Below the pieces are notes generated by a model, which worked only from the letters and a program-made list of their open reading frames with translations, was not told where the DNA came from and did not search any database. The position numbers were made by a program, and so were the translations under genes. Below are positions 9,728 through 12,317 of a stretch of 41,219 nt of DNA, piece after piece. This DNA is from an uncultured Roseiflexus sp. (GTDB taxonomy: Bacteria > Chloroflexota > Chloroflexia > Chloroflexales > Roseiflexaceae): the NCBI GenBank assembly GCA_937935075.1, contig CALGYB010000169.1, positions 1 to 41,219 of the forward strand, in the 5' to 3' direction. Within the stretch, counting starts at the first letter, position 1; each line of letters opens with the position of its first letter.

Positions 9728-11002
9728 TTACGACCGCCGGATGACATCGATGCCGCCCATGTAGGGGCGCAGCGCTTCAGGGACGACAATGCTGCCGTCA
9801 GCCTGCTGGTAGTTCTCCATGATGGCGATCAGCGTGCGCGGCAAGCCCAAGCCCGATCCGTTCAGTGTGTGGACGTACTCCGGACGCGCTCCCGGCGTTG
9901 GACGGTAGCGGATGTTCGCTGCCCGCGCCTGAAAGGCTTCAACATTCGAGCACGAACTGACTTCGAGCCATTCACCTTGCCCCGGCGCCCACACCTCGAT
10001 GTCGTAGGTGCGGGTGGCGGCGAATCCCAGGTCACCGGTGCAGAGTTCTTTGGTGCGGAACGTCAATCCCAACCGTCGGCAGGTCTCCTCGGCGTCGGCG
10101 CGTAGTTTTTCGAGTTCGTCGTAGCTCGTTTCCGGGCGGACGAACATATACATTTCGACTTTGTCGAACTGATGCCCGCGCTTGATGCCGCGCACGTCAC
10201 GCCCGGCGCTCATCTTTTCACGGCGGAAGCAGGGGGTGTAGGCGCAATAGCGCAGCGGCAACTGATCCGCCTCCAGAATCTCATCGCGGTGCAGATTCGT
10301 CACCGGCACCTCGGCAGTTGGCACCAGCCACAGGTCATCTTCCACGTCGCGGTAGAGGTTGTCGCGGAACTTGGGCAACTGGCGCGCGCCCCACATACAC
10401 TGCTCTTTTACCACGAACGGCGTGTAGACCTCGTAGTATCCCTGTTGAATGTGGAGGTCGAGCATCCACTGAATAAGGGCGCGTTGCAGGCGCGCTCCCT
10501 GCCCTTTGAGAACGTAGAAACGCGAGCCGGAGAGTTTGACGCCGCGCTCGAAATCGATGATGTCGAGCGCTTCGCCAAGTTCCCAGTGCGGCTTTGGCGT
10601 AAAATCGAAGGTGCGCGGTTCGCCTTCCTGCGCCACCACCACATTGTACGTCTCGTCTGGTCCATCGGGAACTGACGGATGCGGCAGATTGCGCAGTTCC
10701 ATTAGCGCCGCCTGCTGCTGCTCCTCAACCGCCGCGAGGTCGCGGTCGAGCGCAGCGATGCGATCACCGACGGCGCGCATCTCGGCGATCTTCGCGTCAC
10801 GCCCGGCGGCATCGCTCATTTTGCCGATCTCTTTCGAGACGGCGTTGCGCAACGCTTTCAGTTGCTCCACGTCACGCAGCAAAGCGCGGCGGCGCTCGTC
10901 GTATGCCAGCACGGCGTCGATCTGCGCCGGATCGACGCCTGCCCGGCCAAGCGCTGCCTTGACCATGTCGGGTTGCTCACGGATCAATCGGATGTCCAGC
11001 AT
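9728..11002 (-). CDS. serS: Seryl-tRNA synthetase
   Basis: 424 residues. It charges tRNA-Ser with serine in the cytoplasm. It has an N-terminal antiparallel coiled-coil arm (about 30-100, rich in [19 protein letters not shown]-type heptads) that binds the long variable arm of tRNA-Ser. The class II catalytic core follows: motif 2 [19 protein letters not shown] and motif 3 [18 protein letters not shown]. Length is typical. AAAGGAA lies 7 bases before ATG 11002. It is the third gene of a T-box operon, 12 bases after Nudix B, so its transcription should respond to uncharged tRNA-Ser. Confidence 0.97.
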
Positions 11003-11014
11003 GGGCGATTCCTT

Positions 11015-11506
11015 TCAGAGCAGCACGTAGTGCCATGAAACCATCTTCCCGTTCTTGTACGGCGCAACGCCGAAGAAGGTCCGGTGGTCACGCGCGAAGA
11101 CCATATCGATCCAGAGGCGGTCGCTGTCCCACAGGTTGAGGTCGTGCAGACGCGTCAACGGCACCCATTCCAGGTCTCCTTCCGGGTTGCTGGTGAATGG
11201 CGTGCCGCTCCAGCGATCGATGCGGAAGACGAAGGCAAACCAGTCCTCTTCATTCTTGCCGAAGCCGGGCCAGTTGAGCGTGCCACGCAACACCATCTCT
11301 TCCACCTCGATGCCGGCTTCCTCGCGGATCTCGCGCTTCATACCGCTGACGACATCTTCGTGCGAGTCGAGTTTGCCCCCCAGCCCGTTGTATTTTCCGT
11401 AGTGCACGTCGTCGGGGCGTGCATTGCGATGCACCATCAGCACCGATGCGCCATCAGGCGACATGACGTATCCAAGCGTTGCCAGGATCGGCGTATATGC
11501 AGGCAT
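11015..11506 (-). CDS. Nudix hydrolase B of the serS operon
   Basis: 163 residues. The Nudix box is complete: GGKLDSHEDVVSGMKREIREEAGIE fits G-x5-E-x7-REUxEExGU (residues about 44-66). The N-terminal part (TPILATLGYVMSPDGASVLMVHRN) and C-terminal DFF-like segments fit the MutT/8-oxo-dGTPase-like branch, but Nudix substrate cannot be told from this. GGAG precedes ATG 11506. The open frame extends upstream to 11929, but that part is antisense-like Arg/Cys-rich sequence overlapping Nudix A. It sits between Nudix A (31-base gap) and serS (12-base gap). Confidence 0.9.
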   Translation of the reverse strand: MPAYTPILATLGYVMSPDGASVLMVHRNARPDDVHYGKYNGLGGKLDSHEDVVSGMKREIREEAGIEVEEMVLRGTLNWPGFGKNEEDWFAFVFRIDRWSGTPFTSNPEGDLEWVPLTRLHDLNLWDSDRLWIDMVFARDHRTFFGVAPYKNGKMVSWHYVLL

Positions 11507-11537
11507 AGATGCTCCATTTGTTCTCAAGAAAAGGGTG

Positions 11538-12023
11538 CTACCACCATGCTGAAACTCCCGCAGCGCCCGCCAGATATTCTTCGATCCGGCGGCGTGATCC
11601 GGGATCGATGCCATCGGGCAGGTCGCCGAACGGGAAGAAGTGCGCTTCGGCAATTTCAATCGAACGCGATGCAACCGGCGCGCTCCGCGTCGTGAACACA
11701 AAGACGACAATGTAATTGACATAATTGAAATGAAAGGCATCATAGACGCCGAGCACGCGCTGAACCTCCGCCACGACGCCGGACTCTTCGTAGACCTCGC
11801 GGCGCGCGGCTTCTTCGAGCCGTTCGTGGGGATCGACCGCGCCGCCGGGCAACCCCCATGGCGTTGCGCCGCCGCGATGACGCACCAGCAGCACCTGATC
11901 GTCGCGCACCACCAGCGCGCGCACGCCAAGGAGTGCTGGACGGGCGATATGCCAGAGCGCGCCGCGCGCCGTGTGCGCCAGGCGGTAGATCAGCGCCAGT
12001 GTGCCATTGACGATCTGATTCAT
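11538..12023 (-). CDS. Nudix hydrolase A, first gene of the serS T-box operon
   Basis: 161 residues from ATG 12023. The Nudix box is intact: GGAVDPHERLEEAARREVYEESGVV. Before it are LLGVRALVVRDDQVLLVRHRG and WGLPGG. An N-terminal stretch of about 30 residues (IVNGTLALIYRLAHTARGALWHIARPALLG) is amphipathic, perhaps membrane-associated. Start choice: GGAGG at 12031-12035 lies 7 bases before ATG 12023 and also forms the 3' side of the leader terminator. An in-frame ATG at 12083 lies inside the T-box and is rejected. Likely substrates are nucleoside diphosphate derivatives; a dinucleoside polyphosphate made by the synthetase is one guess. Confidence 0.9.
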   Translation of the reverse strand: MNQIVNGTLALIYRLAHTARGALWHIARPALLGVRALVVRDDQVLLVRHRGGATPWGLPGGAVDPHERLEEAARREVYEESGVVAEVQRVLGVYDAFHFNYVNYIVVFVFTTRSAPVASRSIEIAEAHFFPFGDLPDGIDPGSRRRIEEYLAGAAGVSAWW

Positions 12024-12056
12024 AAAAAAACCTCCACGTCCGCGAAGGACGAGGAG
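12024..12056 (-). terminator. T-box terminator hairpin
   Basis: On the minus strand CTCC(T)CGTCC pairs with GGACG(T)GGAG around TTCGC, followed by seven T. The 5' arm CTCCTCGTCC is shared with the antiterminator, so the two structures exclude each other. The hairpin also buries the GGAGG ribosome-binding site of Nudix A. Confidence 0.9.
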
Positions 12057-12282
12057 TTTGCTCCCCCGTGTTGCCACCTTCATTCGCCGCGTCCGGCGGA
12101 CGCGACCTCATTCCTCTGCGCGGTAACGGGCGCTCCCGGCGTTGGTTCGAGCGGGCGAACGATGCCGCGCTTTTCCCAGGCGACTCAGGAGGGGATTCGG
12201 CAGTCATCCGGCAGCCGCCTCGCACCAACCGGCGGTTCTCTGGGTGCTGATGAGCGCCTACGTCGTCTCCGTCACTGTCGTT
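12024..12282 (-). promoter_or_regulatory. Serine T-box leader
   Basis: Read on the minus strand, the leader has the stem I distal pattern CAGAGAACCGCC-GGTTGGTGCGA-GGCGG (12214-12243), then GAATCCCCTCCTGAGT and GGGAAAAGCGCGG. A candidate specifier is AGC (Ser) at 12169-12171, but I could not fix it with certainty. The T-box is GAAGGTGGCAACACGG (12066-12081). The antiterminator pairs GAAGG with CCTTC and ACG..GGAG with CTCC..CGT around the TGGCAAC bulge. TGGC fits tRNA ending G-CCA, the discriminator of tRNA-Ser. It controls the two Nudix genes and serS by premature termination. Confidence 0.9.
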
Positions 12283-12288
12283 GCCGGT

Positions 12289-12317
12289 ATTATATCAGCC
12301 TTGTAAACAGCGTGCAA
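12289..12317 (-). promoter_or_regulatory. Promoter of the T-box operon
   Basis: On the minus strand TTGCAC (12312-12317), 17 bases, TATAAT (12289-12294). Transcription would start near 12282, just before the T-box stem I. Confidence 0.8.

Follow-up and report, generated by a model that had tools for sequence, protein, structure and literature searches.

The window, a 41,219-nucleotide stretch from an uncultured Roseiflexus sp., carries on its minus strand a promoter, a T-box leader, and three closely spaced genes. The promoter (12289..12317; TTGCAC and TATAAT separated by 17 nucleotides) was read directly from the sequence and recurs in the leaders of relatives. It is followed by a serine T-box leader (12042..12284) with Stem I, an F-box region CCGUUA, Stem III, and an antiterminator, as assigned by RF00230 and RNAalifold, and by an intrinsic terminator with a U7 run (12024..12056), as judged by hairpin energy and a terminator scan. 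N1 (11538..12023) encodes a Nudix hydrolase of 161 aa (PF00293, E = 9.5e-20), N2 (11015..11506) an MTH1/MutX-like Nudix hydrolase of 163 aa (PF00293, E = 3.1e-15), and serS (9728..11002) a seryl-tRNA synthetase of 424 aa (TIGR00414, 482.7 bits, E = 9.8e-145), of which only one copy was found in the genome. The gaps measure 31 bp between N1 and N2 and 12 bp between N2 and serS, and N1-N2-serS is probably transcribed as a single unit. The original prediction, made from the sequence alone, had already read a promoter, a T-box, an antiterminator/terminator switch, and tight gene spacing at this locus, in agreement with the RF00230 match, the hairpin, and the measured gaps; its gene calls were confirmed by Pfam for both Nudix genes and by TIGR00414 for serS. 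A plasmid search gave no match.

The RF00230 model covers the leader end to end (model positions 1-219) with 69.1 bits and an E-value of 5.5e-15 on 501 bases, or 1.3e-14 when the whole genome was searched, where it was one among six T-boxes. As the Rfam gathering score of this model is 93, a default Rfam scan of the window misses the T-box, and its membership therefore also leans on the leaders of orthologous operons, the best of which, that of a sister genome, reached 91.6 bits. A K-turn in Stem I, an AG-rich distal loop, and the specifier loop were all seen in the RF00230 alignment. When RNAalifold was applied to 16 orthologous Stem I regions with no structure supplied, Stem I was recovered with compensatory changes in 11 of 16 pairs. 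The specifier loop GAA-UCC (12193..12198) contains the serine codon UCC at 12195-12193, which is identical in all 16 aligned leaders and fits both the host tRNA-Ser(GGA) and the downstream serS. The covariance search that had been proposed for assigning the specifier thus found Stem I and returned serine. The earlier statement that the TGGC of the bulge agrees with the G discriminator of tRNA-Ser also held, as the 3' end of the host tRNA-Ser(GGA) is CCCC-G-CCA, that is, GCCA. In this way, the specificity was fixed for a T-box that is missed by a default scan.

The terminator hairpin (12056-12031; -15.2 kcal/mol, z = -3.4), with U7 next to it, and the antiterminator are mutually exclusive, with CUCCUCGUCC common to both. 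In nearly all leaders of relatives, the same CTCGTCC stretch is contested by antiterminator and terminator, and terminator hairpins of -11 to -21 kcal/mol rival the antiterminator. The 3' arm of the window's terminator contains GGAGG (12035-12031), which sits 7 nt upstream of the N1 ATG and is likely the N1 Shine-Dalgarno sequence; this double role of the terminator arm had been overlooked in the original prediction. The -35 element TTGCAC of the promoter is weak, matching the consensus in three of six positions, and a sigma-70 consensus scan did not call the promoter. The pattern TTGC[AG]C-16/18-TATAAT was found at the corresponding distance in 12 of 28 leaders, at a background of 0.07 per kb.

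The T-box bulge (12070..12076) was compared across 28 leaders. Its UGGC (12076-12073) is complementary to the GCCA of tRNA-Ser, yet the ACC part reads AAC, with A at 12071; that the window has UGGCAAC in place of UGGCACC had also escaped the first reading. UGGCACC is present in 24 of the 28 leaders, including that of the sister genome G069, and the four exceptions are all from Roseiflexus, namely UGGCAAC in the window and CGGCGCA, UGGCGCU, and UAGCGCU in the relatives G065, G066, and G068. Four of the five Roseiflexus genomes thus have a changed bulge, while the ACC part, which stabilises the discriminator structure (PMC7583486), is invariant in the other genera. At the serS loci of G065, G066, and G068, RF00230 detected no T-box at E <= 1; other T-boxes were found in these genomes. 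The remaining five T-boxes of the window genome retain UGGNACC. Upstream of N1 in genus g20 of family f2 (L084, L085, L094, L095), a terminator-like fossil, CCCTCGTCCTTC, precedes a G-rich arm and TGTTTT; no T-box is present there, and the fossil adjoins a gene that, from its reading, resembles that for ribosomal protein S18. On the basis of the altered Roseiflexus bulges, the unrecognised leaders, and the g20 remnant, several lines seem to have lost tRNA-Ser control in parallel and to have kept the operon.

For the gene order, N1 was searched for in 82 genomes of the order Chloroflexales, and the regions around 60 hits were taken, which together with the window gave 61 loci. N2 adjoins N1 in 59 of these, and serS lies downstream on the same strand in 53; some of the loci that lack serS break off close to the end of a contig. 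The synteny check that had been suggested for the Nudix-Nudix-serS arrangement therefore showed it to be conserved, and a gene order unique to the window genome is ruled out. Genomes with this order include Roseiflexus, Kouleothrix, Oscillochloris, Chloroploca, Viridilinea, and Chloroflexus islandicus. No flanking gene family other than two small ORFs is common to more than nine loci, which rules out that the order was kept merely through conservation of the whole neighbourhood. N2 orthologues outside the order, elsewhere in the phylum, were not found near serS, so a phylum-wide Nudix-serS association is ruled out as well, and N1 relatives in Hyphomicrobiales have neither serS nor N2 nearby. 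At most loci with serS located elsewhere, N1 and N2 remain together. Overall, the comparison shows that Chloroflexales lineages have stably maintained the Nudix-Nudix-serS operon. One of the two small ORFs, found between N2 and serS in 20 loci, is conserved, codes for about 150-170 aa, and is apparently a single-pass membrane protein; the other, found after serS in 21 loci (e.g. L096 and L106), codes for a Cys-rich protein of about 120 aa (CGPDCGCGCPY). A Pfam search with one member of each gave no match.

A T-box was found upstream in 28 of the 61 loci (19/20 in f1, the window's family, 5/37 in f2, and 4/4 in f4), counted with a pattern that allowed four substitutions and hence included decayed copies. 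Another 25 genomes keep the N1-N2-serS order with no T-box found ahead of it. Conversely, in G029 the T-box directly precedes serS and N1-N2 is located elsewhere, and in G042 and G043 of family f3, which lack N1-N2, a serine T-box is separated from serS by two or three small, unrelated ORFs. In family f4 and in G057, an extra gene, which from reading the translations is a glycosyltransferase or uracil-DNA-glycosylase-like, lies between the T-box and N1. These arrangements indicate that T-box plus serS is the constant element wherever the switch is kept and that the genes in between vary by lineage. They show, at the level of gene arrangement, that T-box plus serS is separable from N1-N2, and the simplest account would have the Nudix pair enter a T-box-serS operon that already existed and be retained there from then on. 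In the f3 loci L184, L186, and L188-L190, two or three small and apparently membrane-located ORFs occupy the place of N1-N2 before serS, and in the f4 loci L100, L110, and L115, a serine T-box (UCC) is followed by a gene for a DPM-type glycosyltransferase and then N1-N2-serS.

Regarding the two proteins, the Nudix box GX5EX7REUXEEXGU is intact in all 61 N1 orthologues. It is also intact in the N2 of the window, and the catalytic RE..EE is conserved among N2 orthologues, although 22 of the 59 deviate from the full pattern, mostly at the Gly that follows EE; the catalytic Glu residues are thus kept in both proteins. The mean identity within the genus is 94.5% for N2, 94.8% for serS, and 79.6% for N1, and, judged by these sequence identities, N1 evolves faster than N2 and serS. 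The AF2 models have pLDDT values of 85.7 (N1) and 91.7 (N2). In the fold search with N2, MTH1 accounted for 48 of 50 among the matches listed, with a TM score of about 0.8. The 8-oxo-dGTPase pocket of MTH1 is formed by Asn33, Asp119, Asp120, and Trp117. Three of these four have conserved equivalents in N2, with Asn40, Trp126, and Asp129 at the positions of Asn33, Trp117, and Asp120, whereas the position of Asp119 is Ser or Gly in most N2 orthologues, and the identity to MTH1 is about 25%. From fold and sequence, N2 is most likely an MTH1-type hydrolase that cleans oxidised or non-canonical nucleotides. With N1, the first Foldseek match was the Aquifex Ap4A hydrolase, then came UDP-X diphosphatase, MutT-like, NudC, and MutT1 entries, and an Ap6A hydrolase appeared further down. 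N1 shares the Nudix core fold with the Ap4A/Ap6A Nudix hydrolases Aquifex aq_158 and Thermus Ndx1 at 24-31% identity, but it has an added N-terminal helix of about 27 residues and is no nearer to these enzymes than to NudC or UDP-X diphosphatase. A Tyr located 16-18 residues past the Nudix box reportedly marks dinucleoside polyphosphate hydrolases, as Dunn et al. are said to have described in 1999. Tyr101 of N1 in the window lies at +18, but N1 lacks a conserved ApnA-type tyrosine, as this residue is not conserved among its orthologues, and we therefore dropped it as evidence for the N1 substrate. NCBIfam gave no equivalog above cut-off for either Nudix protein, and PHROGs gave generic Nudix matches only.

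In our view, with a probability of about 0.75, the locus is a tRNA-Ser-responsive T-box attenuator whose conserved target is serS, with the Nudix pair as a passenger that is transcribed along with it and conserved within the lineage, as the T-box accompanies serS also in genomes that lack the Nudix genes or carry them at another place. Uncharged tRNA-Ser(GGA) would base-pair through its anticodon to the UCC specifier and through its GCCA end to the UGGC bulge; the bound tRNA would stabilise the antiterminator, and RNA polymerase would continue into N1-N2-serS and yield one transcript. If the tRNA is charged, the terminator would form just ahead of the N1 start codon, and as the likely N1 Shine-Dalgarno sequence lies inside its 3' arm, read-through RNA in the terminator fold would be poorly translated too. 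It is extremely improbable that RF00230 matched GC-rich sequence by chance here. The score lies under the gathering threshold and the fold of the whole leader has an MFE no lower than that of shuffled sequences, which is uninformative, but the full-length E-value of 1e-14, the invariance of UCC, and the agreement with the tRNA argue against chance, and the covariation and the orthologous leaders rule it out. A mainly translational control, in which the hairpin masks the GGAGG of N1 instead of halting transcription, would fit the position of this motif 7 nt before the ATG and the relative L086, which has a hairpin without a long U-run. We regard it as very unlikely, as most leaders carry a U-run after the hairpin, T-boxes that act on transcription typically have a long Stem I (PMC7583486), and the start codon is far downstream in several relatives (e.g. 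L071 and L075), where the hairpin cannot cover the Shine-Dalgarno sequence. A possible, though rather doubtful, alternative is that the Roseiflexus serine T-box is a decaying relic, with a weak or non-functional copy in the window and an operon that is mostly expressed regardless of charging. The four altered Roseiflexus bulges against UGGCACC in the other 24 leaders, the three serS loci blank to RF00230 in genomes whose other T-boxes were detected, the UGGNACC kept in the other T-boxes of the window genome, and the loss in g20 all point in this direction, and given the C-to-A exchange in the ACC part and the three of five unrecognised Roseiflexus leaders, the switch may indeed be weak here. 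However, the AGAGA loop, specifier, UGGC, antiterminator, and terminator are all intact in the window leader, so that the single substitution may only weaken the switch, and in a draft genome the A at 12071 could be an assembly or sequencing error.

The passenger reading of the Nudix pair has to be weighed against a functional tie to SerRS, in which N1 and/or N2 would, upon SerRS induction, break down Ap4A or other side products of aminoacyl-adenylate chemistry, or guard charging in some other way. Conservation of the N1-N2-serS order over three families exceeds what a mere passenger would predict; the order is kept over at least three families with or without the T-box and amid scrambled surroundings, and such a tie would also agree with the first Foldseek match of N1, an Ap4A hydrolase, and the Ap6A hydrolase lower down, and with the catalytic Glu residues in both proteins. 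On the other hand, N2 is MTH1-like, N1 matches UDP-X, NADH, and MutT1 enzymes about equally well and its +18 tyrosine is not conserved, and N2 orthologues elsewhere in the phylum lie away from serS. In addition, N1 and N2 are paired without serS in several genomes, which makes N1-N2 the tighter unit, and adenylates are made by every aminoacyl-tRNA synthetase, so that serine is not singled out. We therefore consider a functional tie unlikely, and the more specific idea of a dedicated housecleaning pair for seryl-tRNA synthetase, which clears some side product of serine activation and stayed in the operon through repeated T-box loss, decidedly unlikely. The original prediction had raised the idea that the uncharged-tRNA signal first controls the Nudix enzymes so that they remove dinucleoside polyphosphates or related by-products when SerRS is induced. 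This role is not supported for N2, given its MTH1-like character, and may at most apply to N1, whose tyrosine is not conserved; the proposed link of the signal to the Nudix genes is not supported in view of the 25 genomes with N1-N2-serS in which no T-box was found, and of T-box-serS in genomes that lack the Nudix genes or have them at another locus.

The leader resembles other serine-type RF00230 T-boxes, such as those of Firmicutes serS (PMC2494555), in having Stem I, UCC, a UGGN bulge, an antiterminator/terminator switch, and serS in the operon. It differs from this type in the two Nudix genes before serS, in UGGCAAC versus UGGNACC, and in the terminator arm that coincides with the Shine-Dalgarno sequence. 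T-boxes of Chloroflexi are known (PMC2494555) and, according to the main text of a further study, were reported from a RegPrecise set with five genomes analysed (PMC3766115); this main text mentions neither Nudix nor serS, and the locus or an orthologue may be in the supplements. The TBDB paper mentions neither Chloroflexi nor hydrolases, and none of the papers searched, supplements and databases aside, described a Nudix-Nudix-serS operon or combined the terms Nudix, seryl-tRNA synthetase, and operon. As the three-gene order is old and occurs in many relatives that have or lack the T-box, the switch is ordinary, and the odd part is the long-lived gene partnership of Nudix and serS. If this partnership is functional, it would offer a concrete genetic handle on the question whether aminoacyl-tRNA synthetases depend on partners for nucleotide housecleaning, and the apparent leader decay in Roseiflexus is a natural series for following how T-box control can be lost from an operon that stays intact.

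Two further T-boxes of the window genome were noted. A threonine T-box (ACC) at L002 (G000 C113:30240-30491) is followed by an ORF of about 197 aa, which gave no Pfam match in the stretch searched, and then by thrS; this ORF is another passenger gene before a synthetase. At L006 (G000 C100:6650-6878), a T-box with 54 bits precedes a gene for a regulator with MerR-HTH and GAF domains, a target that is neither a synthetase nor an amino-acid gene.
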